A stretch of DNA of 33,135 nt from a virus, in the IMG/VR virus record IMGVR_UViG_3300032213_001197, positions 1 to 33,135 of that record; one strand, written 5' to 3'. Each line of letters starts with the position of its first letter. Position 1 is the stretch's first letter. Positions 10,877 to 26,632 of this stretch are shown here, in pieces. Under the pieces are notes generated by a model. That model was not told the origin of the DNA. It saw nothing but the letters and a program-made list of their open reading frames with translations, and made no database searches. A program made the position numbers and the translations under genes.

Positions 10877-10924
10877 GTAAAAAAACGCCCCGGCTAGTCA
10901 AGTTTATTTGACAGCCGAGGCGTT
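10877..10924 (-). terminator. Strong intrinsic terminator after the peptidoglycan-binding gene
   Basis: On the - strand AACGCCTCGGCT pairs with AGCCGGGGCGTT around an inner GTCAA/TTGAC stem, followed by a run of T. This is one of the longest hairpins in the window. Confidence 0.85.
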
Positions 10925-10938
10925 GATTTGTTCCTAAA

Positions 10939-11415: not shown

Positions 11416-11417
11416 TA

Positions 11418-12020: not shown

Positions 12021-12203
12021 TGATTGTTCCTTTGTTCGGGGACAGGGACAGGTGCTTTCTTAGCCACCTCGGCGTCTATAAAAGCCCGCCTAGTTCCCCC
12101 CGCTGTGGGGAGATTGGTTGGTTTACAACCTTTCAAGTTCGTGCGACCAACTATAGTCGCTTTGTCGTTGGGATAACAGTATCACAGAATTGTCAGGGAA
12201 GTA

Positions 12204-12224
12204 GCGTTTTTGGGGGAAAAACGC
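12204..12224 (-). promoter_or_regulatory. Hairpin in the leader of the lysis operon
   Basis: GCGTTTTT-GGGGG-AAAAACGC is a perfect 8-bp inverted repeat between the DUF6011 gene and the lysozyme gene. It has no U-tract, so it is not a standard terminator. Smaller inverted repeats (GGTTG...CAACC near 12115-12130) lie closer to the lysozyme start, so the 226-nt gap may be a structured leader. No ORF is visible in the gap. Confidence 0.45.
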
Positions 12225-12246
12225 CACCTCCCTTGTGTGGGATAGA

Positions 12247-12711
12247 TTACTTTCCAAACGCCTTTCGGCAGATTGGCCCTAGCCCCAACTCACGACTTAC
12301 CTCATCAGTAAGTTCAGCCCCGCATTTAGCACAGCAGGAGTAGTGAACCGCAAACAACTTCGCATACTTGTATGGGTCTTCTAGCAAAACACGCACGAAC
12401 ATAAGCGTATCTTCGGCGTGTGGCTTGATGCGAGTGAACCCTCCGTATGAACCAACTAGACGGCGAAGGTAGGCTGTCTTCTTGAACTCACGGGTTTCAA
12501 CGAAAACATAATCATTATCAACAGGTTGAACCATAAAATCACCCATAAGTTCAGATGTAGGTATGGCGTATTTAGATTTAGGCAACTTAGAAAGTGCCCC
12601 ATAAAGTTCCTTCCAATCCACTTGATTGGCAGGAATAACCGCAGGTGCGTGAACCGCAGGTGCGGGAGCAGGGTTCTCACCGAAGAGAACCATTTGTGAT
12701 GCTGTGGTCAT
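12247..12711 (-). CDS. DUF6011-type zinc-finger protein, 154 aa
   Basis: An Ala/Pro-rich N-terminus precedes an alpha/beta central region, and the C-terminus (CCAKCGAELTDEVSRELGLG then PICRKAF) carries the DUF6011 pattern of CxxCGxxLTDxxS...GxGPxCR. DUF6011 modules occur next to nucleic-acid enzymes in phages and are presumed zinc-binding. GAAAGGGGG lies before ATG 12711. It has its own promoter. Confidence 0.72.
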   Translation of the reverse strand: MTTASQMVLFGENPAPAPAVHAPAVIPANQVDWKELYGALSKLPKSKYAIPTSELMGDFMVQPVDNDYVFVETREFKKTAYLRRLVGSYGGFTRIKPHAEDTLMFVRVLLEDPYKYAKLFAVHYSCCAKCGAELTDEVSRELGLGPICRKAFGK

Positions 12712-12733
12712 TTTGACCCCCTTTCAAAAACAA

Positions 12734-12762
12734 ACAATACTACAAGCCAAGATAAAAGTCAA
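12734..12762 (-). promoter_or_regulatory. Promoter of the DUF6011 gene
   Basis: On the - strand, TTGACT (12762-12757), 17-bp spacer, TATTGT (12739-12734). Confidence 0.65.
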
Positions 12763-12776
12763 GACGACACACCAAA

Positions 12777-12810
12777 CAAAACCCCTACCCGAGGAAGGTG
12801 GGTAGAGGTT
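12777..12810 (-). terminator. Terminator of the 12.8-14.6 kb operon
   Basis: On the - strand AACCTCTACCC-ACCTTCCTC-GGGTAGGGGTT forms an 11-bp stem (one G:U pair), followed by TTG. Confidence 0.75.
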
Positions 12811-12837
12811 CTGTTATGGAGTTCCCTTGACCTTTGT

Positions 12838-12990
12838 CTACTTCTCCCTAGAGGCTAGCAATGCGCTTGCCACCGAAGAGAGTCCCAGAGCCAAAGTCCA
12901 AGTCATATTATTTTGCCACGCCGAAACAAAAGACGCAAGCCCCAACACAACAGTAACTACTGCTGTCCAAACTACATTCATGTTATTCAT
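12838..12990 (-). CDS. 50-aa membrane protein with two predicted helices
   Basis: ATG 12990 overlaps the stop of the HTH gene (ATGAATAA). The sequence has two hydrophobic stretches, VVWTAVVTVVLGLASFVSAW and TWTLALGLSSVASALLAS, joined by QNNM, with a short charged tail. This hairpin topology suits a small holin or antiholin, and the gene lies just upstream of the lysis block, but size and position are the only support. It is the last gene of its operon. Confidence 0.68.
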   Translation of the reverse strand: MNNMNVVWTAVVTVVLGLASFVSAWQNNMTWTLALGLSSVASALLASREK

Positions 12991-13210
12991 TAGCCTTCTT
13001 CTTTCTTTTGGGGGAGGTTCTTCCTTTTACACGAGCGGAGGGGTCTCTTACAACCACACCTTTACTACGAATTGCTTTGCGAGCGCATCGGTAGGAAACT
13101 TTTAGTTCGCTAGCCACGCTTTCTATTGACAAACCTTCTTGATACATTTTTGCAGCGTCTTCAGCAATCTTTTTACTTTTTGTTATTCCCGGCAGGGAGG
13201 CTCTTGTCAT
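12983..13210 (-). CDS. Small helix-turn-helix protein, 75 aa
   Basis: Residues 17-52 (AEDAAKMYQEGLSIESVASE, LKVSYRCARKAIRSKG) form a clear resolvase/sigma-70 region 4-like HTH, followed by a very basic tail. The ATG follows the preceding stop with no gap (TAAATG). It is probably a DNA-binding regulator; the target is unknown. Confidence 0.75.
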   Translation of the reverse strand: MTRASLPGITKSKKIAEDAAKMYQEGLSIESVASELKVSYRCARKAIRSKGVVVRDPSARVKGRTSPKRKKKANE

Positions 13211-13690
13211 TTACACTTTCTCTTCTTCGTATGGTCGTTGAACCGCATTTTGAATGACAGCAGGGTCTAGCCCTTTACTTTTCAACCACTCAATGGTTTC
13301 AGGGTCTTGTGCTTCGTTGTGAACATGGCGTCCTTCGTTCCAAGTAAAGAAAGAAGTTGTGCCTTCAGGTAGAACCCAAAGGTGATACTGGTTAGAAGTA
13401 TCAACAAGTTGGCTTTCAGGCGGGAAGATTTCTACTGCTTCTCTTTCAGCACCCGCAAGTTCGTTCTTGATGCGCTGGAAGTGTCGCCAATCCCTGACAG
13501 CCTTTCTTTCGTTGTGTCGAATAGAAAGATGTAATCCACTCTTCTCACCAAGTTCGGGCTCTAAAACTGTCTTGACAACTGTATAGAACTTATTTCTATA
13601 GATAGTTTGGTTTGGTTCGAGAGTTATTTGGTTTGAATTGACTACCGCAATAGCCTCTTCAAACTTATCCCAAGTAGGTTTAGCCGACAA
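13211..13690 (-). CDS. DUF7694-like conserved phage protein, 159 aa
   Basis: The core (LHLSIRHNERKAVRDWRHFQ, RIKNELAGAEREAVEIFPPE, then LVDTSNQYHLW) matches a conserved phage domain that I know as DUF7694, of unknown role. The start is TTG 13690, immediately after the stop of the 54-aa gene (TAGTTG), which points to translational coupling. The Trp and His residues of the core are the most conserved part in relatives. Confidence 0.7.
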   Translation of the reverse strand: MSAKPTWDKFEEAIAVVNSNQITLEPNQTIYRNKFYTVVKTVLEPELGEKSGLHLSIRHNERKAVRDWRHFQRIKNELAGAEREAVEIFPPESQLVDTSNQYHLWVLPEGTTSFFTWNEGRHVHNEAQDPETIEWLKSKGLDPAVIQNAVQRPYEEEKV

Positions 13691-13855
13691 CTACTTGACC
13701 CACTTCTTGTATAAACGATAGCCAATGTATCCAAGAAGAACAGCAATCAAGGCTGGAGTATAAACAGAGATGCTAAAGAAGTTTGAGGAAACCTCAATCC
13801 ACTCGAACTGACATTGAAACCCGCACTCGGGGTCTAGTTGTGTTATTTCTTCCAT
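13691..13855 (-). CDS. 54-aa single-pass membrane protein
   Basis: MEEITQLDPECGFQCQ begins an acidic N-terminus with two Cys. A single hydrophobic helix (about 30-48, VYTPALIAVLLGYIGYRLY) and a KKWVK tail follow, predicting N-out/C-in topology. The start is preceded by AGGAAAAAGTAAAA, the ribosome-binding version of the dispersed A-rich motif. It belongs to the eight-gene operon. Confidence 0.72.
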   Translation of the reverse strand: MEEITQLDPECGFQCQFEWIEVSSNFFSISVYTPALIAVLLGYIGYRLYKKWVK

Positions 13856-13876
13856 TTTTACTTTTTCCTATTTCTC

Positions 13877-14038
13877 TTAGTTTTTGATTGAGTTGTAGTG
13901 AAGTTCAGCCAGTTCTTTGCGAAGTTCTAAGTTCTCCCGCATCAAATTTCTGTGTGCTTGTATGGAGACTACCATTACAAAGCACGAACCCGCAAGGGCG
14001 ATAATAAGTCCTATCATTGTTCCAGTATCTAAAAACAT
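13877..14038 (-). CDS. 53-aa membrane-anchored coiled-coil protein
   Basis: An N-terminal hydrophobic helix (about 8-27, MIGLIIALAGSCFVMVVSIQ) is followed by a heptad-like helix (NLMRENLELRKELAEL). The architecture recalls small inner-membrane lysis accessory proteins, but no family is recognised. ATG overlaps the previous stop by one base (TAATG). Confidence 0.72.
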   Translation of the reverse strand: MFLDTGTMIGLIIALAGSCFVMVVSIQAHRNLMRENLELRKELAELHYNSIKN

Positions 14039-14214
14039 TAGGCGTTTACCTCTTCTCGTTTGATGCTTTCTTCTACCGCACGCTTGATAGTGATGTAAGC
14101 ATTACCGCATGGATAGCAGAATCTTTCTGTGAAAGGCATCTCCCGCATAAAGGCATCTACGCCTGAATAAATAATCTGAGTGTTTTCACAATGAGGTGTT
14201 TGACATTTAGCCAT
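14038..14214 (-). CDS. 58-aa zinc-finger-like protein
   Basis: Four cysteines in two pairs (CQTPHCENT near the start, FCYPCG at 32-37) suggest one zinc site. The C-terminal helix is charged (TIKRAVEESIKREEV). The start follows AAAAAGTAA, sharing TAAATG with the preceding gene. Confidence 0.72.
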   Translation of the reverse strand: MAKCQTPHCENTQIIYSGVDAFMREMPFTERFCYPCGNAYITIKRAVEESIKREEVNA

Positions 14215-14403
14215 TTACTTTTTCCTTTCAGGTAGTGGGAGGTTTCTCATGAAATCTCTCCGTGCTTCTTTTGTTGGTAGTGCTTCTCTTTCAGCCATTT
14301 GCTCGTCTGTCATAAAGGCAAACTTCAATAAAAACTCTGTAAACTCTTCTTTAGTCAAAGAAGTTTTCGCAAGTAGGTCTTCACCCTTTTTAGTTATCCT
14401 CAT
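14215..14403 (-). CDS. Hypothetical protein, 62 aa
   Basis: The frame could open at TTG 14424, but ATG 14403 overlaps the stop of the upstream membrane protein as ATGA, so that start is preferred (MRITKKGEDLLAKTSL...). The protein is helical and charged, with no Cys or membrane segment. Family not recognised. Confidence 0.68.
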   Translation of the reverse strand: MRITKKGEDLLAKTSLTKEEFTEFLLKFAFMTDEQMAEREALPTKEARRDFMRNLPLPERKK

Positions 14404-14558
14404 GGGTATAACAAATCTAGGCAAAATTGGTTCATCTGCTCTGTTGGCACTTTACACATTTCAGGTGTAGTAGCGTCAAGAGCCCAAACAATAAGTGCGA
14501 TAAAGACAATGCCTACCGCAAGTCTGCGTCTTTTGTATTTTGCTTCTGTTCTAATCAT
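14400..14558 (-). CDS. 52-aa single-pass membrane protein
   Basis: A basic N-terminus (MIRTEAKYKRRR) precedes one hydrophobic helix (LAVGIVFIALIVWALDA) and a soluble tail with two Cys, predicting N-in/C-out. AAGGGAAAAGACAAA precedes the ATG. It is the first gene of the eight-gene operon, 45 bp downstream of its promoter. Confidence 0.7.
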   Translation of the reverse strand: MIRTEAKYKRRRLAVGIVFIALIVWALDATTPEMCKVPTEQMNQFCLDLLYP

Positions 14559-14602
14559 TTTGTCTTTTCCCTTTCTTATTGACTTCCCTAGCCAATAATC
14601 TT

Positions 14603-14631
14603 ATTGTAGCAACTTCCCTGACATTTATCAA
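14603..14631 (-). promoter_or_regulatory. Promoter of the 12.8-14.6 kb operon, with overlapping direct repeats
   Basis: On the - strand TTGATA (14631-14626), 17-bp spacer, TACAAT (14608-14603). The repeat GTCAGGGAAGTT occurs twice, at 14611-14622 and 14631-14642, in the spacer and just upstream of the -35, with a partial third copy (CTAGGGAAGTC) at 14581-14591. A protein bound there would control access to the promoter. Confidence 0.68.
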
Positions 14632-14656
14632 CTTCCCTGACTTTCGGCGTGTCGTC

Positions 14657-15175
14657 TCACTCCGCTTTAGGAAGTGAGAGCAACCACGCTACGAAACGAG
14701 GATTACATAGAGCGTTAGGGCTTCTTTGCTTTCTAATCAGGTCAATCGCTTCTTGGGCTGAATAACCTTCTTTGATTAGGACTAGAGCCATAATCAGCCC
14801 TGACCTGTTCCAACCTGCTTGGCAACGAATAAGAACCTTCTTACCCGCCTTCCAATCTTCGTGGGCAACCCGCACCGCTTGGTAAATCTGCTTGAAGTCA
14901 ATGTCTTTCATGTCTCCGTCATAGAACGAATAACGAAACTCTTTGACTAGCCAATCCGTAGGTTGAGCCCACGCATAGGCTGTAATTACTGTGTCAAAGT
15001 CTGACTTAGTAATGAACGCACCCTCATTTTCAGCCCGTGTGTCAAATACTGTGTCAAAGTCGTCTGTTCCACCCTGCCATAAGTTAGGAAGAACCTCTGA
15101 CCATAAATCTTTATCTAGCACCAATCCATAATCGGGTCGGGCTAGGTTTTCATCTACAATTACATTTGTATCCAT
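14657..15175 (-). CDS. Dual-specificity/tyrosine phosphatase-like protein, 172 aa
   Basis: The C-x5-R signature VLIRCQAGWNRSG (Cys118, Arg124) identifies the phosphate-binding loop of the DSP/PTP superfamily, with SG following as in active enzymes. Asp86 or Asp88 in FYDGDMKD is the likely general acid. The helix after the P-loop (LIMALVLIKEGYSAQEAIDL) is typical. The His normally before the Cys is Arg here. AAAGGAG precedes ATG 15175. Related genes occur in actinophages, but targets are unknown. It may act on host phosphoproteins or nucleotides. Confidence 0.82.
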   Translation of the reverse strand: MDTNVIVDENLARPDYGLVLDKDLWSEVLPNLWQGGTDDFDTVFDTRAENEGAFITKSDFDTVITAYAWAQPTDWLVKEFRYSFYDGDMKDIDFKQIYQAVRVAHEDWKAGKKVLIRCQAGWNRSGLIMALVLIKEGYSAQEAIDLIRKQRSPNALCNPRFVAWLLSLPKAE

Positions 15176-15196
15176 TTTTCTTCTCCTTTCGGGGGA

Positions 15197-15225
15197 AGTG
15201 TATAAGTTTTACTTCTTTTTGTCAA
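15197..15225 (-). promoter_or_regulatory. Promoter of the phosphatase gene
   Basis: On the - strand TTGACA (15225-15220), 17-bp spacer, TACACT (15202-15197). The -35 lies inside the last codons (FDKKK) of the upstream gene. Confidence 0.65.
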
Positions 15226-15385
15226 ATAACCTAATAATTTGAGCAACTCTGCGAGCCACCCAAGCGTTCATAATGTCTGAGACATCTTGATAATACTTCT
15301 CTTCTTTCATACTACGCCCTTTACTTTTACGAGAAGCACGCTTTACTGCCGTATAGACCACGCTATCTGGCAATCCTCTTGGCAT
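15209..15385 (-). CDS. 58-aa small basic protein (paralogue of the protein at 7980-8132)
   Basis: MPRGLPDSVV...VKRASRKSKG is followed by EKYYQDVSDIMNAWVARRVA and a LFDKKK tail. Both blocks match the rightward 50-aa protein. AAAGGGAAAAAGAA precedes the ATG. The 3' end carries the next promoter. Helical, cytosolic, unknown function. Confidence 0.78.
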   Translation of the reverse strand: MPRGLPDSVVYTAVKRASRKSKGRSMKEEKYYQDVSDIMNAWVARRVAQIIRLFDKKK

Positions 15386-15418
15386 TTCTTTTTCCCTTTC
15401 TTTCTAGTTGTTATCCGT

Positions 15419-15447
15419 ATTATAGCCCACCCTAGCGTAAAAGTCAA
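15419..15447 (-). promoter_or_regulatory. Consensus-quality promoter of the 58-aa gene
   Basis: On the - strand TTGACT (15447-15442), 17-bp spacer, TATAAT (15424-15419). The -10 is perfect. Confidence 0.8.
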
Positions 15448-15459
15448 ATCAAGAAGAAG

Positions 15460-15529
15460 AAGTTGTTTATGCTCTGTCCTCCTTGGTACGCATCAACGAA
15501 CTTTGCGCATAGTTTTTTACTTTTTGCTA
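15460..15529 (-). repeat. Non-coding spacer with A-type repeat and dispersed motif
   Basis: AAGTTGTTTATGC (15460-15472) lies 40 bp from TTTTTTACTTTTTGCTA (15513-15529, i.e. TAGCAAAAAGTAAAAAA on the - strand). The gap 15448-15585 holds no supported gene. Confidence 0.6.
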
Positions 15530-15585
15530 TGTACGCTGTCGGTGCTGGACTTCAAGATAACTTTTGCATCTCCACCAAAAAATAG

Positions 15586-15612
15586 AAAAAGGTTCGGGGG
15601 GGAACCCGAACC
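15586..15612 (-). terminator. Terminator after the DUF3846 gene
   Basis: On the - strand GGTTCGGG-TTCCCC-CCCGAACC is followed by TTTTTC. Confidence 0.85.
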
Positions 15613-15630
15613 CTTCTCTTTGAGGAAATC

Positions 15631-16020
15631 TTAGCGGAGATACTCTCCGAACCGACCCCCTAGTAAGTATGCAGTCGGGATTACTTTCTTGTCGTATCCC
15701 AACCAATGAGCGACTTGTTCGTCAGTAAGACCTAAAGTCTCACCTTCTTCGTCCGCACCCCCCGTAATAATTACATTACCGAGAATAGGATTACCCGCGT
15801 TGAAAGTTTCTGAATAGATAGCCGAAGCAATCATATTTAGTTCTAGACCTTCGGCGATGCCATTTTCATTACACCACAAGTCCGCGTCTCCTAAACCAAC
15901 ACACTCAATCATTCCACCCACCGAATTGCTAAGTAGTTTGTAAGAGTTTCCAATCTCAAACTCCACAACGGACTTAGTGCCTTCAGTAGTAATGATTACT
16001 GCCTTTTGTTTTTTACCCAA
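15631..16020 (-). CDS. DUF3846 protein, 129 aa
   Basis: The family pattern is clear: SYKLLSNSVGGMIECVGL, then LWCNENG, LELNMIASAIYSETF and GNVIITGGADEEGETLGLTD. DUF3846 proteins are small, of unknown function and widespread in actinobacteria and their phages. GAGGGGG lies 8 nt before TTG 16020, so that start (MGKKQKAV) is better than the longer in-frame opening at 16059, which lies at the transcription start. Confidence 0.8.
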   Translation of the reverse strand: MGKKQKAVIITTEGTKSVVEFEIGNSYKLLSNSVGGMIECVGLGDADLWCNENGIAEGLELNMIASAIYSETFNAGNPILGNVIITGGADEEGETLGLTDEQVAHWLGYDKKVIPTAYLLGGRFGEYLR

Positions 16021-16049
16021 TTTAATCACCCCCTCGTTGTTGTTGCGTA

Positions 16050-16078
16050 AGTATAACACTTTGTATAAAGAAAGTCAA
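16050..16078 (-). promoter_or_regulatory. Promoter of the DUF3846 gene
   Basis: On the - strand TTGACT (16078-16073), 17-bp spacer, TATACT (16055-16050). Confidence 0.78.
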
Positions 16079-16160
16079 ATCTATTTAGAAAAATTATTGA
16101 GGGTTCTTACTTACGACATTGGGCGAGGACTCCCTCAAACTGCCCCTGTTTCGGTAGGAA

Positions 16161-16400
16161 TTATGCTACGAGGATTACTTCGTATCCTCTTGTAATCTTG
16201 GACTGAACCTTGTCGTTGGCGTATGCCTTAGCAAGGAATGGATAAGCAAAACTTTTTACTTGCTTTGCTTGTGCTGAAACATCTTCAGCCTTACCCCATA
16301 GGGTAATAACTTTGTTATCTTCTACGATAACCTGATAAATCTTCTTGAGACCGGCATTTCCGCGTTCTCCGTCAGACTTCTTGACGAGTATCCACTTCAT
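16161..16400 (-). CDS. Small protein with WGR-like pattern, 79 aa
   Basis: GAAAGGGGAAAAA precedes ATG 16400 (MKWILVKKSDGERGN...), so the longer frame to 16439 is not used. YQVIVEDNKVITLWGKAE, then SFAYPFLAKAYANDKVQSKI and GYEV follow the order of a WGR domain (aromatic, WG[RK], Ala-rich helix, K...GY), a nucleic-acid-associated fold. The match is weak and by eye only. It has its own promoter and terminator. Confidence 0.7.
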   Translation of the reverse strand: MKWILVKKSDGERGNAGLKKIYQVIVEDNKVITLWGKAEDVSAQAKQVKSFAYPFLAKAYANDKVQSKITRGYEVILVA

Positions 16401-16429
16401 TTTTTCCCCTTTCTGAAGGTGATAAGAGT

Positions 16430-16458
16430 AGTGTAGCACTTTTGTTTTGTCTTGTCAA
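16430..16458 (-). promoter_or_regulatory. Promoter of the WGR-like gene
   Basis: On the - strand TTGACA (16458-16453), 17-bp spacer, TACACT (16435-16430). Confidence 0.72.
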
Positions 16459-16483
16459 ATCTATTTAGTTTTATTCTTTGAGA

Positions 16484-16508
16484 GAAGCCCCGCACTTGGC
16501 GAGGCTTC
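16484..16508 (-). terminator. Hairpin terminator after the 26-aa gene
   Basis: GAAGCCTCGC-CAAGT-GCGGGGCTTC on the - strand forms a 10-bp stem with one G:U pair. The following T-run is short (TCTCAAAG). Confidence 0.65.
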
Positions 16509-16522
16509 CCCCTTCTAAAGAA

Positions 16523-16603
16523 TTAGTTGTATAACTCTTTAGGGTTTGCTGGCTGATACCAGTTATCTCCGGAGAGATAATCTTCAAACTGCTCTTCGTT
16601 CAT
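16523..16603 (-). CDS. 26-aa microprotein with its own promoter and terminator
   Basis: MNEEQFEDYLSGDNWYQPAN, then PKELYN. AAAGGGGGC lies 4 nt before the ATG, a promoter lies 27 bp upstream and a hairpin lies just after the stop. The peptide is acidic and Tyr/Trp-containing. The complete set of expression signals is the main argument that it is real. Confidence 0.65.
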   Translation of the reverse strand: MNEEQFEDYLSGDNWYQPANPKELYN

Positions 16604-16629
16604 AAGAGCCCCCTTTCTTTGTAATACCG

Positions 16630-16657
16630 AGTCTACCAGTTTTTGTAGGGAAGTCAA
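16630..16657 (-). promoter_or_regulatory. Promoter of the 26-aa microprotein
   Basis: On the - strand TTGACT (16657-16652), 16-bp spacer, TAGACT (16635-16630). Confidence 0.6.
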
Positions 16658-16678
16658 GTCGTGTCGGACTATTTCTTT

Positions 16679-16807
16679 CCCCCCCCCCCCTACTCCTTAT
16701 GACGAACGAGGGTGGCAAATCTCAATGCACTAGCGATTATGGTCAATAAGTTGTTTGGAAGTTGCCCGCAGCCGGCTGCCGACTACTGCATTTTTTACTT
16801 TTTGCTA
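16679..16807. repeat. Non-coding spacer: C12 tract, A-type repeat and dispersed motif
   Basis: A run of 12 C (16679-16690) is followed by GGTCAATAAGTTGTTTGGAA and GTTGC (16741-16765) and by TTTTTTACTTTTTGCTA (16791-16807). The first repeat recurs almost unchanged at 18328-18351. Between them is a GC-rich GCAGCCGGCTGC palindrome. No gene is supported here. Confidence 0.6.
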
Positions 16808-16828
16808 TGTCACTTAAATCCAGTACAA

Positions 16829-16856
16829 AGAAAAACCCCCGCATCTCTGCGAGGGC
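16829..16856 (-). terminator. Terminator after the 73-aa zinc protein gene
   Basis: On the - strand CCCTCGC-AGAGAT-GCGGGGG is followed by TTTTTC. Confidence 0.82.
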
Positions 16857-16871
16857 TTCTCCCAATTCTGT

Positions 16872-17093
16872 TTAGTTCTTCACGAGAACCGCAGGGTCAA
16901 ACCCTTTGGCGCACTCACGGCCTACTGGCCAGAACCCCTGTGAGATTCTTCCCCCGTCAGCATCGCTGGCTGGGTGTAGAACCGAACCCGAAGTAGATAG
17001 ATGAACCAACCATGCGTTGTTTCCTACCTTGCGTCCGCATTGGCAACACGCATCATCATTGAGACCATTTACAAAATCTCCGAAAGAAATCAT
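16872..17093 (-). CDS. Small zinc-binding-like protein, 73 aa
   Basis: CCQCGRKVGNNAWLVHLSTS near the N-terminus and GGRISQGFWPVGRECAKGF near the C-terminus give a CxxC...H...C pattern reminiscent of DUF6011-like modules. AGGAAGGGGGTGA precedes ATG 17093. It is monocistronic between its own promoter and terminator. Confidence 0.72.
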   Translation of the reverse strand: MISFGDFVNGLNDDACCQCGRKVGNNAWLVHLSTSGSVLHPASDADGGRISQGFWPVGRECAKGFDPAVLVKN

Positions 17094-17126
17094 TTACTTC
17101 ACCCCCTTCCTTTCCTTGATAGTCTA

Positions 17127-17155
17127 ATCATACTACATCTATAAATAAAAGTCAA
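17127..17155 (-). promoter_or_regulatory. Promoter of the 73-aa zinc protein gene
   Basis: On the - strand TTGACT (17155-17150), 17-bp spacer, TATGAT (17132-17127). Confidence 0.68.
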
Positions 17156-17407
17156 GTCAAGTTGTTTGGAAGTCGCCAGTTACTCACAAATAAAAAATGA
17201 GATGTATCTCACAGGCAAAATGTCCGTTTTGTCTTCACATTTAATTCGTCAGGGTTTTTGGCAAATCAGACTAGTTAAGTTGTTTGGAAGTTGCAGGGCC
17301 CCGGCTTTCCAGGGAGGCGTGCATTAGCAAAAAGTAAAATTACAACGACAGCGCCGGCAAGAACGGGAAGTTGTTTGCAAGGTGCCGGATGGTAATAACC
17401 GGTAGAA
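17156..17407. other. Non-coding spacer with three A-type repeats and an inverted copy of the dispersed motif
   Basis: AAGTTGTTTGGAAGTYGC occurs at 17159-17176 and 17277-17294, and AAGTTGTTTGCAAGGTGC at 17368-17385. TAGCAAAAAGTAAAA lies at 17325-17339 on the + strand, the one clear copy opposed to local transcription. It is followed after about 30 bp by the third repeat, as in the right-hand units. No gene with a ribosome-binding site is visible. Confidence 0.6.
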
Positions 17408-17436
17408 TAAAAAAACCCCGCCATTTCTGACGGGGC
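17408..17436 (-). terminator. Terminator after the 61-aa gene
   Basis: On the - strand GCCCCGTCAGAAATGGCGGGG is a C4G/CG4 hairpin followed by seven or eight T. Confidence 0.82.
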
Positions 17437-17450
17437 TTTCTTAATAAGTC

Positions 17451-17636
17451 TTAGGCTTCTGCCCTTAGACAACGCATCTCTTCTTCTGCGACATCAACCG
17501 CATGGAGGAAGTTTTCGGGATGCATCACATAGCCGGCAAGGTAAGCGTATTTACCTTCATACTTTCCGTGCCAGAGTTGATAGTGGTTTTCAATACGATA
17601 CAAACGATACTCGCCATGCTTTTTCATAGCCCTCAT
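17451..17636 (-). CDS. Hypothetical protein, 61 aa
   Basis: MRAMKKHGEYRLYRIENHYQ begins a Tyr-rich beta-like half, and a helical acidic C-terminus (FLHAVDVAEEEMRCLRAEA) follows. ATG 17636 directly follows the previous stop (TAAATG). An internal ATG at residue 4 is an alternative start. Family not recognised. Confidence 0.68.
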   Translation of the reverse strand: MRAMKKHGEYRLYRIENHYQLWHGKYEGKYAYLAGYVMHPENFLHAVDVAEEEMRCLRAEA

Positions 17637-17870
17637 TTATCTATCCAATCTCAAGATACGGACAAGTTCGCTAGCAGTTATTTCCCAACCCGCATCTGTC
17701 TTTACGGCAGTAGCAGGGTGAGGCACTATGTCGGCAGGTAATACGACTACCGCATCATAGTCTTCCTCTTGATAGAGTTCCCAAGCCTTTATGGCAGGTT
17801 CCGCATAGTCAAGTGGTAGTGGTGGATAAAAGTTTCCTCGCAAGTGATAACTCATCGAGATAGTGTTCAT
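17637..17870 (-). CDS. Hypothetical protein, 77 aa
   Basis: ATG 17870 overlaps the stop of the preceding zinc-finger gene (TAATG) and has GCGAGG upstream. The in-frame TTG at 17885 is less likely. The core (YAEPAIKAWELYQEEDYDAV) looks helix-then-strand. Family not recognised. Confidence 0.68.
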   Translation of the reverse strand: MNTISMSYHLRGNFYPPLPLDYAEPAIKAWELYQEEDYDAVVVLPADIVPHPATAVKTDAGWEITASELVRILRLDR

Positions 17871-17998
17871 TACTTTGCCTCGCAATCGTGTCCATACCCG
17901 AGTTCATCGGGTGTAAGTGCTTTCTCGCACTCACCGCAAATAGGAACAACCTTGCCACTCGCATAGAGTGCTAGGTGCTTTAGAATCATGTCTGACAT
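17870..17998 (-). CDS. 42-aa zinc-finger-like protein
   Basis: The C-terminal half has CGECEKALTPDELGYGHDCE, a CxxC...HxC site. GAAAGGGG precedes ATG 17998. It is the first gene of a three-gene unit ending at the terminator at 17.4 kb. Confidence 0.7.
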   Translation of the reverse strand: MSDMILKHLALYASGKVVPICGECEKALTPDELGYGHDCEAK

Positions 17999-18024
17999 AC
18001 ATACCCCTTTCTAGGTTTGTTTCT

Positions 18025-18156
18025 TTATTCTACACTGTTTTTTGAAGAAGTCAAGTCCATTAGGTAATCCATTTGATTACAAGTAAGGCAGATGTCTAGA
18101 GTCTCATCGTATTCCCACTCCGCACCGCACCAGTTACATTTAGTTGTCTTTAGCAT
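18025..18156 (-). CDS. 43-aa zinc-ribbon protein with structured leader
   Basis: CNWCGAEWEYDETLDICLTC forms a compact Cys4 ribbon. AAAGGGGGAAAA precedes ATG 18156. The last 10 codons overlap the promoter of the next gene. The mRNA has an unusual, highly structured 95-nt leader (18157-18253). Confidence 0.72.
   Translation of the reverse strand: MLKTTKCNWCGAEWEYDETLDICLTCNQMDYLMDLTSSKNSVE
18027..18054 (-). promoter_or_regulatory. Promoter of the 17.45-18.0 kb unit, inside the preceding gene
   Basis: On the - strand TTGACT (18054-18049), 16-bp spacer, TAGAAT (18032-18027). It lies within the 3' end of the 43-aa gene. Confidence 0.65.
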
Positions 18157-18253
18157 TTTTCCCCCTTTATTAGGTTCAGTAGGGGAGTCGTATTGTTTCC
18201 GACCCCCTAGGTTTCAGGTCGTTCAGGTGACCAGCGACTTCCCCCCTACTGAA
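18157..18253 (-). promoter_or_regulatory. Structured 5' leader, candidate RNA switch
   Basis: Read on the - strand, TTCAGTAGGGG pairs with CCCCTACTGAA and, after a 3-nt bulge (GGA), AGTCG pairs with CGACT, giving a 16-bp closing stem that encloses almost the whole leader. Inside, one GACC can pair either with an upstream GGTC or, as CGACC, with a downstream GGTCG, so two hairpins exclude each other. ACCTGAA is repeated twice in the loop region. The predicted transcription start lies at the base of the stem. No known riboswitch class was recognised. Confidence 0.6.
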
Positions 18254-18260
18254 TAACCGA

Positions 18261-18289
18261 ACAATAACACTTATCCGAAAGAAAGTCAA
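18261..18289 (-). promoter_or_regulatory. Promoter of the structured-leader transcript
   Basis: On the - strand TTGACT (18289-18284), 17-bp spacer, TATTGT (18266-18261), followed by TCGGTT as in several other promoters here. Confidence 0.72.
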
Positions 18290-18327
18290 ATCCAAATCAG
18301 CGTGTCTTGTCCAAATAGGAGGGCAGA

Positions 18328-18393
18328 GGTCAATAAGTTATTTGGAAGTGTGACCAGTGGTTAATCAAGTTAATGATTTTTTACTTTTTGCTA
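18328..18393 (-). repeat. A-type repeat plus dispersed motif overlapping a stop codon
   Basis: GGTCAATAAGTTATTTGGAA (from 18328) is a near copy of the sequence at 16741. TTTTTTACTTTTTGCTA (18377-18393) includes the TAG stop of the Ntn-hydrolase gene. Confidence 0.62.
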
Positions 18394-18963
18394 TGAGCCG
18401 AAGTGTTGAACGCTCACATAAATTGGAGGACTTGTGCTTGGGTCAAGCCTAGATGCAATAGTTATTGCTTGTCGTACTAAGGTTTTTGCTGTTGCCAGAG
18501 TTCTTTTTCTAGTTTCTAGAGTAGCAAGTAAAGCCCCCTGTGCATAACTACTTCCAGAACCAATAGTGTAAACGCCAGACTCATCTCTACCCCAAGCGTA
18601 GTCCTCGCCTATTTCATAGACAGTCCCGTTGATAACTACCAACAACTGACTATCGTGTTCCCCGTCTTTTGAGTAGGAAGCGTCCTCAAAGCATTTTTTG
18701 AGTTCAGGAATAAAGACCGCAGTCATAAACTTATCTAGCCTTGCCCCATAAGCGGTTGCCGAACAGACCGGTGGCTTGAAGACATACGCCAATAGGTTGA
18801 TAGCACGGAGGTCGCCAGCACAACCTATTAAGTAATTTCCGTTCTTAAATACCTTGCCGTTGTCTTTTGGGAGCGTATAAATCTTGCTGTTGTCTTCAGT
18901 CACTCTACTGTCGTAACCAACAACAGCCCATGCCTCGCCCTGAACGGCTGCAATAGTAGTCAC
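18391..18963 (-). CDS. Proteasome-like Ntn hydrolase, 190 aa
   Basis: The protein starts M-TTIAAVQGEAWAVVGYDSRVTE. After Met removal Thr would be residue 1, Asp (GYDSR) residue 17 and Lys (GKVF) about 36, matching the Thr1/Asp17/Lys33 catalytic set of proteasome beta and HslV subunits. LIGCAGD and IGSGSSYAQGAL match the conserved AGD and GSG elements of the fold. The start is GTG 18963 with GGGAG 8 nt upstream. The family comprises N-terminal-threonine peptidases. Whether this one is a peptidase, a ring subunit or a decoy is unknown. The stop codon lies within a dispersed motif. Confidence 0.75.
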   Translation of the reverse strand: MTTIAAVQGEAWAVVGYDSRVTEDNSKIYTLPKDNGKVFKNGNYLIGCAGDLRAINLLAYVFKPPVCSATAYGARLDKFMTAVFIPELKKCFEDASYSKDGEHDSQLLVVINGTVYEIGEDYAWGRDESGVYTIGSGSSYAQGALLATLETRKRTLATAKTLVRQAITIASRLDPSTSPPIYVSVQHFGS

Positions 18964-18980
18964 GCTTTTACTCCCGTTCG

Positions 18981-18997
18981 TTTTTTACTTTTTGCTA
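18981..18997 (-). repeat. Dispersed motif at a stop codon
   Basis: TTTTTTACTTTTTGCTA; read leftward it is TAGCAAAAAGTAAAAAA, and the TAG is the stop of the 81-aa gene. Confidence 0.65.
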
Positions 18998-19240
18998 AGA
19001 CTCGAAGCCGTCCCACAAATCTTTACGGAGTTGTTCATACCTGTCGCCATGATGCCCGTTGTATTTGTTTGAGATGTCTTCGTCCCTTAGAAGATAGTCT
19101 AGCGAAAGAACGGCAACGCAATCGGGCTCATCAAACATAATAACCAGTTTCGTATCCCCGTCCTCGGGGTTATCTACAATGGCGCAGATAAAAGGTAAGC
19201 CACCCCCGTTCGGGTGGTAGTCCTTAGCCACTATCTTCAT
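18995..19240 (-). CDS. Hypothetical protein, 81 aa
   Basis: MKIVAKDYHPNGGGLPFICA starts a beta-rich protein with a DUF-like compact look (LVIMFDEPDCVAVLSLDYLL) and an acidic C-terminus. ATG 19240 was chosen over GTG 19249 because the latter has no spaced ribosome-binding site, although the site for ATG is also weak (GAGAAG). Family not recognised. Confidence 0.65.
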   Translation of the reverse strand: MKIVAKDYHPNGGGLPFICAIVDNPEDGDTKLVIMFDEPDCVAVLSLDYLLRDEDISNKYNGHHGDRYEQLRKDLWDGFES

Positions 19241-19299
19241 GCTTCTCACGCCTAAAGGTTAGCGGGGGTTGCCGAAGGTGATTTGCTTCTAAAACACTA

Positions 19300-19396
19300 A
19301 TGCCCCCGAGATTGGAGTTTCGGGGGCATAGCGGAGCGCAGAAGGGAAAGGGTATTCCTTGCGCTCTATGTCGCCGTCAGAAAGGGGGGAGACGGC
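19300..19396 (-). promoter_or_regulatory. Three consecutive hairpins between genes
   Basis: GCCGTC/GACGGC (19373-19396), AGCGCA/TGCGCT (19335-19365) and a perfect ATGCCCCCGA/TCGGGGGCAT (19300-19329) fill the gap between the 118-aa gene and the 81-aa gene. The last resembles a terminator without a good U-tract. The others are unexplained. Confidence 0.55.
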
Positions 19397-19404
19397 AACA
19401 CTAC

Positions 19405-19761
19405 TTATAGTTTATCAAGTATTTCTAGAGGCACAATGACATCTGCTGAAATTACCTGTCCGACAGAGTTCGTTCTAGCGAACCTGCCTTTCGGGTTATC
19501 AAACCTAACAGTTACCTTTGTTCTACGAATACCAACCACCGAGCCTACTTCGCCTCGGAGGTATTTAGTTCCGCATCTTTCATTTATGGTAATTCTATCT
19601 CCCACAACGAAATCATCTATTTTTACTTTTTCCTTTAGAAGTTCTTTTCGTTCTTGGACAACCCTACTTAGTTCGGATAAGTTTTTATCTAACTCACCTC
19701 GTTCTATCTTGTCGCAGAAAGATACAAATAAATCTAAATTACTCGTCATTGTCATTGTCAT
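19405..19761 (-). CDS. Protein with SH3/KOW-like beta domain, 118 aa
   Basis: A helical N-terminal half (DKNLSELSRVVQERKELLKE) precedes a beta-barrel-like segment (FVVGDRITINERCGTKYLRG, EVGSVVGIRRTKVTVRFDNP) of the kind seen in KOW/SH3 modules. GGGGAGG lies before ATG 19761. ATGs at 19755 and 19749 are alternatives within an ATGACA repeat. It overlaps the upstream gene by 23 nt. Confidence 0.7.
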   Translation of the reverse strand: MTMTMTSNLDLFVSFCDKIERGELDKNLSELSRVVQERKELLKEKVKIDDFVVGDRITINERCGTKYLRGEVGSVVGIRRTKVTVRFDNPKGRFARTNSVGQVISADVIVPLEILDKL

Positions 19762-19981
19762 CAAGTTCCTCCCCTGCCTCATCAACAACCCCAATGCTGT
19801 TGGAAACGGAGGCAACATCAAAGCCATAGTATTCTTTTACAAATACAGACGCCACACGAATACTAAAGTCGTGTTCGCTCTCGTCTTCGTTGCGTAAGTT
19901 GTTGTCAAGAACGACAGTAGTCATCAAAGTAAAGTAATCTCCAACAAACATTACTGTTCTTGAAAGAGTTATCTCGTCCAT
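19739..19981 (-). CDS. Hypothetical protein, 80 aa
   Basis: A beta-rich body (RTVMFVGDYFTLMTTVVLDN) ends in an acidic tail with DDNDND. The ATG overlaps the previous stop by one base. Family not recognised. Confidence 0.7.
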   Translation of the reverse strand: MDEITLSRTVMFVGDYFTLMTTVVLDNNLRNEDESEHDFSIRVASVFVKEYYGFDVASVSNSIGVVDEAGEELDDNDNDE

Positions 19982-20211
19982 TAGAAGTCCATACTTTCTA
20001 CAAACTTACTAAACTTTAAGTCAAGTTCGTCAGAAGTTTTGCCTTCAGGCATAGGATAAAACTTTCCCTCGCCTTGATAGGAGTAATCCCAAGTGCCTAA
20101 GGACTCGTTCCAAATAGTTCCGTCAGGAAACCGCACTTCTTCGCTATCAACATCATGCGACCAAGTTTTGGTTTCGTCATCATACTTTACGATAAAGTGG
20201 TGTTCAGCCAT
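19981..20211 (-). CDS. Hypothetical acidic protein, 76 aa
   Basis: The sequence is Trp/Tyr/Asp-rich (MAEHHFIVKYDDETKTWSHD), with no Cys or membrane helix. The ATG overlaps the preceding stop by one base, so it is coupled to the 90-aa gene. Confidence 0.7.
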   Translation of the reverse strand: MAEHHFIVKYDDETKTWSHDVDSEEVRFPDGTIWNESLGTWDYSYQGEGKFYPMPEGKTSDELDLKFSKFVESMDF

Positions 20212-23068: not shown

Positions 23069-24865
23069 TTAGGCAACTGCCCTTTGTCCAACTTTGTTTA
23101 GGACTCGCATAGCAGACATACCGATAATTTCGGAAGCCTCTGCTGGATTACTTATGTCTCTAACAACTTCTGCGTATCCTTGCCCGAGTCTGTTAGCAGT
23201 ATGTCCATTGTCAAAGGGAAGCCACAGAATTGCTACTCCTGCTTTTTCACACTTCTTTACAATTTCCATACACGACTTTGTTTCATCAGATGTGTATTCT
23301 CCGTCAGAAACAATAACTAGAAGTCTTGCCCCATTTCCGTAGAGCAACCCTAGAGTTCCGTCTAGTGCCTTGAACGCTTTAGTGAACTTCTCAGTTCCGT
23401 CCTGAGCAGTAAAGACATTTACCTGAGGCAACTTCTGTCCAACACTTAGTGTTGGGAATACATCATTTCCGTAATAGACCATAGCGCACTTACCTTGAAT
23501 ACGATTTACTGCCTCAGACATAACCCACGCAGTAGTAGCCATAGGGTTCATAGCAGAGCCCATTGACCCTGAAATGTCCACCATAACTCCAACTGTAAGT
23601 GTTGGTTCGTCTGTGTGCTTGCGAACAGTTTTGCGGAAAGGATTTTCGTTTTTCATAACTCCCATTGAACGAAGTGCCTTGTTCTGCATAATTGCTTTAG
23701 TGCGAAGTCTGCCCGGAGGAGTAGGACTAGCAATCTCTTTTACATCTCTCTCACGATACTTCGCTTTTTCAAGCAACTGACTAATACGAACAGAGGCAGA
23801 ACGCTCTAAGGAGTTAGGCTCTCTTTGTTCAACAAGTCTGCTATTGGTTTTGCCAACACCTACACCTGTTGATTTGTCAAAGACTTTGTTCGCAACTTCT
23901 TTGTTCTCTGCTTGCTCTTGTGCTTCTGAGGCTTTTGTTTGTGCCTCATCTTTCCAATCCTCTAATTGTTCTTGGTCGGCAAGTTCACCGAAGTTAGACA
24001 TCTCTATGTTTTCCGCAATCTCTTTTAGAGTTTCCATAATTGCGTCAGCCAATTCTTTAGGCATAGGGATACCGCCCTTACCGCCCTCAGGATTTTCATT
24101 AGGAGTCTCGCCTCTTTCTTTACCAATCTTGCGAGCCAACTCAGCCCAATCTTTTGCTATTGGATAAAGTTCTGTTGCGTCTGAGTGCTTGTCGTGGCGT
24201 TGTGCCATGCGTGCTAACTCACGGAAAGCATTTAGGTTGTCCTCACCTATTTGGCTTTTTACCCACTCATCTATTTCGGCAACTTCTCTTATAGAAAGAA
24301 TACCTGCTTCAACTCGGGCGTGAACAAGACCTATGAGATTTGTAATTGCTATTGTTGGTTGCTCATTTGTAAAGGCTTCTTTAGCATCTCCAATAGCAAG
24401 TTCCATAGCGCAAGAGCGAAGGAAAGGCTTAGCCTTACTATCTCTTAGCAATCCTTGATACTCAATGCGACCTTCCTCTAACAACATCAAGGCTTCATAC
24501 TCATCACGCTTTAGTTCTTTGTATGCGTCAGGCATAGACCATTGTGAGAAGCGAGCGTGGAAGGCTTCGTGCATAATCGCACCTGTTGCCATTGGAAACT
24601 CGTATTGTGTTTTGCGAAGTGTTATGTCGCCTATGTTGTCAGGAGTAATTCCATTTCCGAAAGCAACTTCAACATTTACTTCTACTTCCGCAGTTTGCGG
24701 GTTGTAGCAAGCGGGGGCAGAACCACCCGCACCGGGACCTACATACGCAACAAGGTCGTCTCTGTGAGACCACTTGTTCGCTAGGTATCCAACATCTCTA
24801 CCAACTTTGAGCCACTCAACTGGCGTTGCTTGCGCTCTAGTTTCACCACTTTTTATGTGAGCCAT
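23069..24865 (-). CDS. Metallopeptidase-like protein with C-terminal VWA domain, 598 aa (MoxR partner)
   Basis: The N-terminal third has HEAFH (residues 99-103), an HExxH zinc motif, and EEGRIE (130-135) that could supply a third ligand. A charged helical linker (about 200-380) follows, then a VWA domain with an intact MIDAS motif DISGSMGS (Asp430, Ser432, Ser434) and further acidic loops (VSDGEYTSDE). This CobT-like layout is the usual partner of a MoxR/CobS-type AAA+ ATPase, and that ATPase is encoded immediately upstream. Such pairs remodel or insert metals into target complexes. GGGAG precedes ATG 24865. The phage role is unknown. Confidence 0.85.
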   Translation of the reverse strand: MAHIKSGETRAQATPVEWLKVGRDVGYLANKWSHRDDLVAYVGPGAGGSAPACYNPQTAEVEVNVEVAFGNGITPDNIGDITLRKTQYEFPMATGAIMHEAFHARFSQWSMPDAYKELKRDEYEALMLLEEGRIEYQGLLRDSKAKPFLRSCAMELAIGDAKEAFTNEQPTIAITNLIGLVHARVEAGILSIREVAEIDEWVKSQIGEDNLNAFRELARMAQRHDKHSDATELYPIAKDWAELARKIGKERGETPNENPEGGKGGIPMPKELADAIMETLKEIAENIEMSNFGELADQEQLEDWKDEAQTKASEAQEQAENKEVANKVFDKSTGVGVGKTNSRLVEQREPNSLERSASVRISQLLEKAKYRERDVKEIASPTPPGRLRTKAIMQNKALRSMGVMKNENPFRKTVRKHTDEPTLTVGVMVDISGSMGSAMNPMATTAWVMSEAVNRIQGKCAMVYYGNDVFPTLSVGQKLPQVNVFTAQDGTEKFTKAFKALDGTLGLLYGNGARLLVIVSDGEYTSDETKSCMEIVKKCEKAGVAILWLPFDNGHTANRLGQGYAEVVRDISNPAEASEIIGMSAMRVLNKVGQRAVA

Positions 24866-24910
24866 TTGCTCATCTCCCTTTTCTATTAGGCTTCCAATCC
24901 CAATACCTGA

Positions 24911-24939
24911 ATAATAACTGTTCGTTCTCTTATTGTCAA
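24911..24939 (-). promoter_or_regulatory. Promoter of the VWA gene
   Basis: On the - strand TTGACA (24939-24934), 17-bp spacer, TATTAT (24916-24911). It allows the VWA gene to be made apart from the ATPase. Confidence 0.75.
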
Positions 24940-24949
24940 ATCGTGTCTA

Positions 24950-24975
24950 GGGGGTGGGTGAACGCTCCCACCCCC
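24950..24975 (-). terminator. GC-rich hairpin between ATPase and VWA genes
   Basis: GGGGGTGGG-8-CCCACCCCC is a perfect 9-bp stem right after the ATPase gene, without a clear U-tract. It may attenuate read-through. Confidence 0.6.
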
Positions 24976-25003
24976 CGACCAGCCCTGCCTATCTAAGGGG
25001 GTC

Positions 25004-26062
25004 TTAGATTTTGGCAGGTTTCACTTCCTCACCGAACGCCCTTGAAAGGACATCTGCGATAGTTGCTCTATCGCTTTCAGGTGAGGACGAGATTAGGTTT
25101 GCGAGAGCAAACGCAGTTCCGAAAGTTGTTGCTATGTCTCGGAAGGCAAGCAACTCACGCATTTGTGGAGACCAACTAATTTGGTTATCCAGTTGCTTAC
25201 GATAAAGATTTTGTGCCGAAGTGATTAGCAAACTTGGAACACCCAACTTCTTTGCGAGTGCGTAGTCAGTAGTCATTTCAACTTGTAGAGTGAAGCGAGA
25301 AGTCAATGCCTCAGAGATACGAACTCCGGGGGCATTAGGGTTGGTAGCACTCACCACAAAGAAATCAGGGTGAGCCTTGATAACTCCACGCTCGGGATTA
25401 GCAGATACAACTAACTCTCTGCGTCCGTCCATTGTTCCGTAAAGTATTGCGAGAACCTTTGGGTCAATCAAACCAATTTCGTCAATGAAATAGACCCAAC
25501 CATTTTCCATACACTTTATTAAATCTCCGTCAATCCACTCAAAGTTTCCACTTGGAGTTTGGACATAAGAGCCAATTAGGTCAGAGACTTCAATGTCTCC
25601 GTGTCCTACGAGTGTTCGCATTTCCTCACCGAAGGTTGCTTCAACGAGAGCAGTTTTACCTGTACCTGGCGCACCATAGAACATTGGGAACATAGGTGAA
25701 CCTACACCTGTAATAACTGATTGCTTTGTGGCTTCTTTAGCATTACGCAAAGCCATAACATCTTGATGCTCTCCCCAAGAGCGAGCATAGTAAATAGCAC
25801 CATTAGGTCTTAGATAACTGTCCACTCCAATAATTGCTTCTACTTGTGGCAGTTCCATTTTCAACCTTGACTTTCGTGGCGCACGCTCTGAACCAACTGC
25901 TCGCTCAACATAGCGACCAGCAGGTAGAACTTGTGAACTAAGTGCGACAGTAGCCTTTTCATTTATCCCCTGTGTAGCAACTAGTTCAATAATTTCCCAT
26001 AGCGTTGGAGATGAGTTAGGAGTAATCACTCCATACTTATCTTTTGCTTTTATTGCGTCCAT
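25004..26062 (-). CDS. MoxR-type AAA+ ATPase, 352 aa
   Basis: Walker A GAPGTGKTA (130-138), Walker B VYFIDEIGLI (190-199), sensor-1 SATNPN (238-243) and a SRF arginine (258) place this in the MoxR/CobS/RavA group, which works with VWA proteins as ATP-driven chaperones. The N-terminal 110 residues are an extra region. LVGHGDIEVSDLIGSY resembles the insert region of the family. It follows the 152-aa gene by 21 bp, and AAGGGGG precedes ATG 26062. Confidence 0.9.
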   Translation of the reverse strand: MDAIKAKDKYGVITPNSSPTLWEIIELVATQGINEKATVALSSQVLPAGRYVERAVGSERAPRKSRLKMELPQVEAIIGVDSYLRPNGAIYYARSWGEHQDVMALRNAKEATKQSVITGVGSPMFPMFYGAPGTGKTALVEATFGEEMRTLVGHGDIEVSDLIGSYVQTPSGNFEWIDGDLIKCMENGWVYFIDEIGLIDPKVLAILYGTMDGRRELVVSANPERGVIKAHPDFFVVSATNPNAPGVRISEALTSRFTLQVEMTTDYALAKKLGVPSLLITSAQNLYRKQLDNQISWSPQMRELLAFRDIATTFGTAFALANLISSSPESDRATIADVLSRAFGEEVKPAKI

Positions 26063-26083
26063 TGTAGTTTATTCCCCCTTTTC

Positions 26084-26542
26084 TTATACTAACTCTGCGG
26101 GAAATCCGAGTGATTTCCTAGAGATGTTTATACGATAAAGAACCTTGTTAGGTGTGTTTCCCTTCGCTATGTCGTCAGCATCAAAGCGAGAGATTTCTGT
26201 AAGGATTGGCTTTTGACGGATTTTCCAACCATGCTTAATTAGTTCATCAAACATAGCGAGCCCATACCTCATGCGTTGTTCTGTGAACTCTGAAACACTT
26301 TCCTCAGGGATTTGACGACCTTCGTCTAACAAACCCTTTACAGACTCATGTCGTAGAGTGGTGGTGCGCCATTGTTTCTTTGGCGATACAGGAGTTATGA
26401 CTCTCCTATGTAAAGCCATAGGAACTAGGTTTCCCGAGTTGCTATAACAATCAGGAGTAATAAGCATTTGCATAGTCTCACCGACATTTTCAAACTCGGC
26501 ATAGACCGCAACCCCCTGAACCTTCTTTTCTTTTTCTAGCAT
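26084..26542 (-). CDS. Protein of the MoxR operon, 152 aa, function unknown
   Basis: AAAGGAAAACAA precedes ATG 26542. The protein is mixed, with a beta N-terminal part and a helical C-terminal part (MRYGLAMFDELIKHGWKIRQ). No motif is recognised. Its place at the head of the ATPase operon suggests a substrate adaptor or target of the AAA+/VWA pair, which is inference. Confidence 0.72.
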   Translation of the reverse strand: MLEKEKKVQGVAVYAEFENVGETMQMLITPDCYSNSGNLVPMALHRRVITPVSPKKQWRTTTLRHESVKGLLDEGRQIPEESVSEFTEQRMRYGLAMFDELIKHGWKIRQKPILTEISRFDADDIAKGNTPNKVLYRINISRKSLGFPAELV

Positions 26543-26602: not shown

Positions 26603-26632
26603 ACTTTACACTACGGGGTTCAATTCTGTCAA
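26603..26632 (-). promoter_or_regulatory. Promoter of the MoxR operon
   Basis: On the - strand TTGACA (26632-26627), 18-bp spacer, TAAAGT (26608-26603), then TCGC as after other promoters here. The -35 lies in a possible 12-codon ORF (MKMDLTELNPVV). Confidence 0.5.

Follow-up and report, generated by a model that had tools for sequence, protein, structure and literature searches.

The window analysed here comprises the 33,135 bases of the IMG/VR virus record IMGVR_UViG_3300032213_001197, taken at its full length. It encodes, all on the minus strand and in the order P152–ATPase–HExxH/VWA, a small protein of 152 amino acids (P152), a MoxR-type AAA+ ATPase, and a protein that combines an HExxH motif with a von Willebrand factor A (VWA) domain. 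The module of three genes is real and conserved; its core pair was already known, while the P152-bearing form is new. The gene set, invariant motifs, VWA fold, synteny, and promoter setting were computed directly. By analogy with known systems, the trio may act as a remodelling motor of the NorQD kind, in which a zincin-like domain would handle the target and P152 would serve the ATPase as its dedicated accessory, a reading to which we give about an even chance of being right. The genes and motifs are listed below; residue counts refer to 54 non-redundant relatives of the ATPase and 57 relatives of the HExxH/VWA protein, and a separate set of 12 sequences includes Gordonia and Microbacterium phages.

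26084..26542, minus strand: P152, open reading frame of 152 amino acids, predicted small alpha/beta fold, kept in relatives
25004..26062, minus strand: MoxR-type AAA+ ATPase, 352 amino acids, AAA_5 match at E 2.8e-17 and PDB profile matches
25652..25675, minus strand: Walker A region of the ATPase, residues 130-137, with G130, G135, K136, and T137 in 54/54
25478..25483, minus strand: Walker B residues D194-E195 of the ATPase, in 54/54
23069..24865, minus strand: HExxH/VWA protein, open reading frame of 598 amino acids with an N-terminal helical domain, a long helical linker, and a C-terminal VWA domain
24557..24571, minus strand: HEAFH, residues 99-103, zincin-like motif, with H99, E100, and H103 in 57/57
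24461..24478, minus strand: EEGRIE, residues 130-135, candidate third metal ligand, with E130, E131, R133, and E135 in 57/57
23564..23578, minus strand: DISGS, residues 430-434, metal ion-dependent adhesion site (MIDAS), with D430, S432, and S434 in 57/57

The pair and the trio across genomes

The three open reading frames of the sequence-only reading were recovered at 23069-24865, 25004-26062, and 26084-26542 on the minus strand. The window is a genome fragment, since its closest relative, with an ATPase 99% identical, is a contig of 122.9 kb. The closest named genome with the trio is that of DSL-LC01, an uncultured freshwater Actinomycetia phage of 129 kb; a nucleotide search among phages with positions 1-20000 of the window gave no match.

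The IMG/VR loci compared were taken around the best 80 of 279 ATPase relatives and the best 80 of 245 VWA relatives; loci L002-L179 overlap one another, and several contigs are present at least twice. The ATPase gene occurs in 168 of the 171 viral loci listed, and L146, L148, and L175, which lack it, start just before the VWA gene. The VWA gene was found downstream in all 165 loci with room for it, which bears out the pair proposed earlier and shows it to be conserved. After five of the 168 ATPase loci with less than 700 nucleotides (nt) upstream were left out, P152 was present in 163/163 (85 distinct ATPase sequences), and the order P152–ATPase–VWA was kept in every one of these. The P152–ATPase gap is 21 nt in the window, with a median of 18 nt across relatives; the ATPase–VWA gap is 138 nt, with a median of 126.5 nt (88 distinct). 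A single operon had been suggested for the three genes; the layout is better described as a P152–ATPase unit followed, 138 nt further on, by a VWA gene that has a promoter-like site of its own. The full trio was also found in two contigs from Gordonia-type queries (L274 and L275) and in a contig of an Aquiluna metagenome-assembled genome (MAG), L180, most likely phage DNA that was assigned to the bin of its host.

The ATPase/VWA pair extends to the Gordonia phages Forza, Phendrix, and GMA2 and to rare actinobacterial chromosomes. The cellular partner was matched by profile in three of 396 actinobacterial genomes, the search-centre genome included; further cellular pairs were found in Actinospica and in one Solirubrobacterales MAG. 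The Solirubrobacterales pair adjoins an SNF2-type helicase resembling the DpdE/DrmD defence helicases (L183 2876-5470). Among the matches listed for distant MoxR genes, 18 contigs were compared: a neighbouring open reading frame has both HExxH and DxSxS in 12, two have the MIDAS only, three end too soon, and one has neither, and P152 was found in none of the 18.

The ATPase and its HExxH/VWA partner

The ATPase matches phrog_16448 (E 3.9e-48), and its top PDB profile matches are Midasin (E 7.3e-68) and NorQ of the NorQ/CbbQ type (E 1.7e-13). N241, R248, and R256 are invariant in 54/54 relatives and are presumably the sensor 1 Asn and Arg finger residues, which together with Walker A and B within an AAA_5-type domain make this a MoxR ATPase. 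At its C-terminus (25004-25021, minus strand), the protein has a conserved PAKI-type tail, with A350 and the last residue I352 invariant in 54/54, which may be a docking tail.

In the partner, the HExxH and MIDAS residues noted earlier are conserved throughout the relatives: H99, E100, H103, D430, S432, S434, and D521 are found in 57/57 and the MIDAS residue T491 in 56/57. The 12-sequence set likewise keeps HExxH, E131, R133, E135, DxSxS, and D521. From its HExxH/EExRxE site, the N-terminal arm may bind metal and perhaps cut, with EExRxE as the putative source of the third ligand. In the predicted structure (predicted local distance difference test, pLDDT, 84.2), HExxH lies within the helical N-terminal domain. 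The VWA part resembles the MIDAS domain of Rea1/MDN1 (Z 17.5, root-mean-square deviation (rmsd) 2.9, 196 aligned) and, by Foldseek (E 6.2e-7), NorD in NorQD, for which VIA gives Z 14.7, though with an rmsd of 11 to 12. In this search, which barely covered the N-terminal part, the likeness to NorD was seen in the VWA part. The absence of a peptidase match from the fold search is uninformative, because the VWA domain fills the match list and the HExxH part is barely covered; distant phage HExxH-VWA proteins can be aligned to the N-terminal domain (probability 85.9). The window protein matches VWA_CoxE at E 0.0014, under the curated cut-off, and 40/57 family members match it at E<=0.01, the best at 1.1e-6. 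No match to CobT_C was found for the window protein at E<=1, and it is absent from the five families matched by the 57 relatives at E<=0.01; the VWA gene of DSL-LC01 is annotated as cobalamin biosynthesis.

Several related systems have been described. MoxR and metallopeptidase-vWA pairs, previously unrecognised, were reported in group 2.2 jumbo phages (Iyer et al., 2021; PMC7824862). Their pair ASV44729/ASV44728 likewise consists of a phage MoxR ATPase and a vWA protein with an N-terminal metallopeptidase-like domain; compared by description, it differs from the present trio, which has a conserved third gene and actinophage relatives. NorQ/NorD and CbbQ/CbbO also couple a MoxR ATPase with a VWA partner having an N-terminal domain and a linker, but here the N-terminal domain carries HExxH, a third gene is present, and no nitric oxide reductase or rubisco target is apparent. 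In ATV, the MoxR ATPase p618 works with the VWA protein p892 as in the trio; in contrast to it, the ATV pair belongs to an archaeal virus, is a virion component, and has no peptidase domain (PMC7824862). The CobS/CobT-like gp42/gp41 of the Vibrio phage ICP2 are an AAA ATPase (23% identity) adjoining a VWA protein, whereas gp41 is of the CobT_C family, the gene order is reversed, and P152 is lacking. The E. coli genes yehI/yehL/yehP may offer a further parallel.

P152, a clade-specific third protein

P152 is predicted to be a small alpha/beta protein (pLDDT 90.7). Its residues Y14, R47, W58, E116, D121, and R137 are invariant. As the sequence-only reading had it, the protein is unrecognised: no Pfam or NCBIfam match was found, and those in PHROGs (E 0.26) and PADLOC (E 0.017) are weak. 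None of the matches to its model in the PDB and BFVD fold searches reached E 0.001. Both BFVD matches to "AAA domain containing" phage proteins, A0A6J7WN45 (441 amino acids; probability 0.98, E 0.06, TM 0.40) and A0A6J5LA07 (455 amino acids; probability 0.84, E 0.2, TM 0.39), are weaker than that threshold; they would suit a fused accessory domain. Weak fold matches point to the WGR domain, namely to a WGR_MMR-like phage protein (probability 0.85, E 0.095) and to the WGR of PARP2 (Z 4.3, rmsd 3.3, 76 aligned), and the WGR profile gave no match at P152 in G001, G006, W01, and W06. Elsewhere in the window, a small open reading frame at about 16161-16439 (minus strand) is the counterpart of WGR-like matches in G001 (82754-82921, E 7.7e-4, below the cut-off) and DSL-LC01 (43428-43601, over the cut-off).

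P152 is tied to the ATPase, since it stays by that gene where the VWA gene is distant. In the jumbo Microbacterium phages Pumpernickel, Cece, Zooman, A3Wally, and Big4, a P152 homologue (scoring 15.9 to 37.5 bits with a profile from which these sequences were excluded) immediately precedes the ATPase gene, from which the VWA gene is separated by about 30-43 kb. In Pumpernickel and Cece, the gene preceding P152 (L020 2845-3228 and L185 1965-2348) scores weakly against the P152 profile (11.8 and 13.5 bits) and is a possible paralogue.

The three genes had been expected to travel together. They do so in all 163 usable viral loci; in the Gordonia phages and actinobacterial assemblies, in contrast, the pair occurs and no P152 can be recognised, which makes P152 a feature of one clade and no part of the core. 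Profile searches did not detect it in Forza, Phendrix, or ICP2, and the single weak match in GMA2 (E 0.005, 13 bits), at a site remote from the pair, is taken as chance. Whole-assembly searches of three pair-bearing bacterial assemblies (G019, G020, and G021) gave no P152. None was seen near G300, G044, and G020 either, a weak negative, as the open reading frame filter on G+C at third codon positions (GC3 >0.85) dropped some true pair genes. The genes between the ATPase and VWA genes of the Gordonia phages (Forza gp118, Phendrix gp102, and GMA2 Orf46) find no support as P152 homologues (hhalign probability 0.6 percent), their resemblance in P/D/I/NTP spacing being by eye and unsupported; nor can a P152 fusion be recognised in the long N-termini of the Gordonia ATPases (hhalign probability 0.2 percent).

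No earlier work on P152 was found in the portion of the literature covered on phage MoxR/VWA, WGR domains, jumbo phages, actinobacteriophages, and DSL-LC01, and the searched text of the DSL-LC01 paper (PMC10611076) yielded no mention of cobalamin, AAA, or HslV. Relative to the phage pairs described, the conserved third gene is new here.

Genomic setting, mechanism, and target

One promoter-like site precedes P152, and another precedes the VWA gene.

24911..24939, minus strand: promoter-like site before the VWA gene, TTGACA-17-TATTAT, near-consensus sigma-70, 11/12
26603..26632, minus strand: promoter-like site before P152, TTGACA-18-TAAAGT, 10/12
24949..24976, minus strand: strong hairpin rich in G+C, past the end of the ATPase gene and ahead of the promoter, with a fold of -31.6 kcal/mol for 24912-25003 (z -2.2)

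The internal promoter that had been proposed before the VWA gene recurs in relatives as a consensus match: 48 of 84 distinct ATPase–VWA gaps score >=10/12, with a mean of 9.47 as against 7.92 in mononucleotide shuffles. Over the whole 5-kb stretch, the promoter-like sites (five) are not above shuffles (mean 6.8), and the case for the internal promoter therefore rests on placement and on recurrence in relatives. In most of the sequences compared, the total of promoter-like sites is likewise no greater than in shuffles. Their distribution is uneven: sites on the trio strand within 12 kb of the ATPase gene number 17/23 in G001, 19/23 in G002, and 21/32 in G003 (p below 1e-7), and the structural span has few on that strand (two in G001 and three in G003; no such count is meaningful for G007 and G002, where this span runs across the ends of the contig). 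Small genes surround the trio in DSL-LC01, with a B12-type ribonucleotide reductase on one side of the run and the terminase on the other; the head-tail genes, which have their own annotated capsid maturation proteases, lie elsewhere; in the Microbacterium phages, the ATPase gene is found near rIIA/rIIB-like and nucleotide genes. This promoter-rich, small-gene setting away from the head-tail genes is new here and favours early, host-directed action; for the close relatives, it is read as early, host-directed expression, which is not proof.

Two further window genes were recognised on the minus strand. One encodes an HslV-like Ntn peptidase (18391-18963; phrog_1040, E 1.1e-25), of which a second copy is present in G001, G003, G010, G012, and G013; an HslV-like gene is kept in 16/17 large relatives, and no AAA_2/HslU-type unfoldase was found in 22/22 records. 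The other is a dual-specificity phosphatase gene (14657-15175; DSPc, E 1.6e-11).

In NorQD, a finger of the VWA protein is inserted into the pore of the ATPase ring, and the MIDAS binds the target (PMC13036017, PMC9976466). If the trio works alike, the ATPase would assemble as a MoxR hexamer, on which the VWA domain would sit with its finger in the pore, and the target would be held through an acidic group by the MIDAS metal. A second arm, facing the target, would be formed by the N-terminal HExxH domain, the HExxH and EExRxE residues of which would bind a metal and probably cut or clamp the target. ATP hydrolysis would drag the target between the two arms, the motion of the ring being transmitted via the VWA finger. 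P152 would be a dedicated accessory of the ATPase giving specificity or control, most simply a target adaptor or a ring regulator. From the hexamer and its docking through metal binding and proteolysis to the target and the role of P152, these are steps that we infer. In the close relatives, the trio would be read from host-type promoters within a host-takeover region of small genes, which makes a host complex, or a phage complex that is not the virion, the more likely target. An adaptor role for P152 is plausible in itself; the fuller proposal, in which P152 is a substrate adaptor and the trio an early ATP-driven phage device that extracts and cleaves one specific actinobacterial host complex, appears unlikely on present evidence.

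Some observations weigh against the NorQD-like, host-directed reading. The MIDAS residue T491 is not kept in the Gordonia phages or Pumpernickel, and the clustering of promoter-like sites is weaker in G010 (7/17) and G007 (10/23) and absent in DSL-LC01 (0/1). Published cases point to the virion: in ATV, p618 is part of the virion and binds the VWA protein p892 (PMC4124505), and the AAA ATPase of Staphylococcus phage DC4, the gene of which adjoins a metallopeptidase gene, was represented by one peptide from a virion preparation (PMC10638138). A role in virion assembly was also proposed by Iyer et al. for the pairs of group 2.2 jumbo phages (PMC7824862); here, the pair would be a chaperone and maturation protease for structural proteins and P152 a scaffold or structural client. 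We regard this as a possible but clearly less probable explanation, as the DSL-LC01 trio stands apart from head-tail genes already furnished with maturation proteases, host-type promoter-like sites gather at the trio, with few in the structural spans of G001 and G003, and the Microbacterium ATPase gene keeps company with rIIA/rIIB-like and nucleotide genes.

Insertion of a metal or cofactor in the manner of a chelatase or NorQD, for instance to supply the nearby B12-dependent ribonucleotide reductase, draws on the precedent of NorQD and CobST as MoxR/VWA-type metal inserters and on the cobalamin label of the DSL-LC01 VWA gene. The reductase of DSL-LC01 is of class II (L230 9396-11456; PF21995, E 5.5e-12), and the five other large contigs mapped encode a homologue on that side of the trio. 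This seems improbable, since the VWA protein has no CobT_C match, whereas ICP2 gp41 does, and no CobN is annotated in DSL-LC01. Slightly less credible still is a compact MoxR-vWA ternary system directed at rival phages or host defences with P152 as third component: such conflict systems combine the same chaperone pair with a third protein (PMC7159879), but the window P152 has no Pfam match to VMAP, nor does VMAP occur among the 25 of 29 families shown for 66 relatives; the three window proteins have no strong PADLOC match, and the cellular copies of the pair have no neighbours in common in the open reading frame sets compared. We give very little credence to a MoxR ring that feeds the nearby HslV-like peptidase by docking through its conserved C-terminal tail. 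The HslV-like gene is present in DSL-LC01 and Pumpernickel in addition to the large relatives, no AAA_2 unfoldase was found in the 22 records, and I352 is invariant; yet Cece, Zooman, A3Wally, and Big4 have P152 and the ATPase but show no HslV, and the Gordonia phages have the ATPase tail and no HslV.

MoxR/VWA pairs occur widely in phages, where they are often annotated as cobalamin or porphyrin biosynthesis genes, and no target was reported for any bacteriophage pair in the literature passages covered. The strictly conserved small extra protein provides a handle for naming one. The promoter setting makes the virion-assembly proposal testable, with the Microbacterium phages Cece, Zooman, A3Wally, Big4, and Pumpernickel as isolated members. 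If true, an extract-and-cleave takeover device would differ from the virion-assembly role proposed so far.

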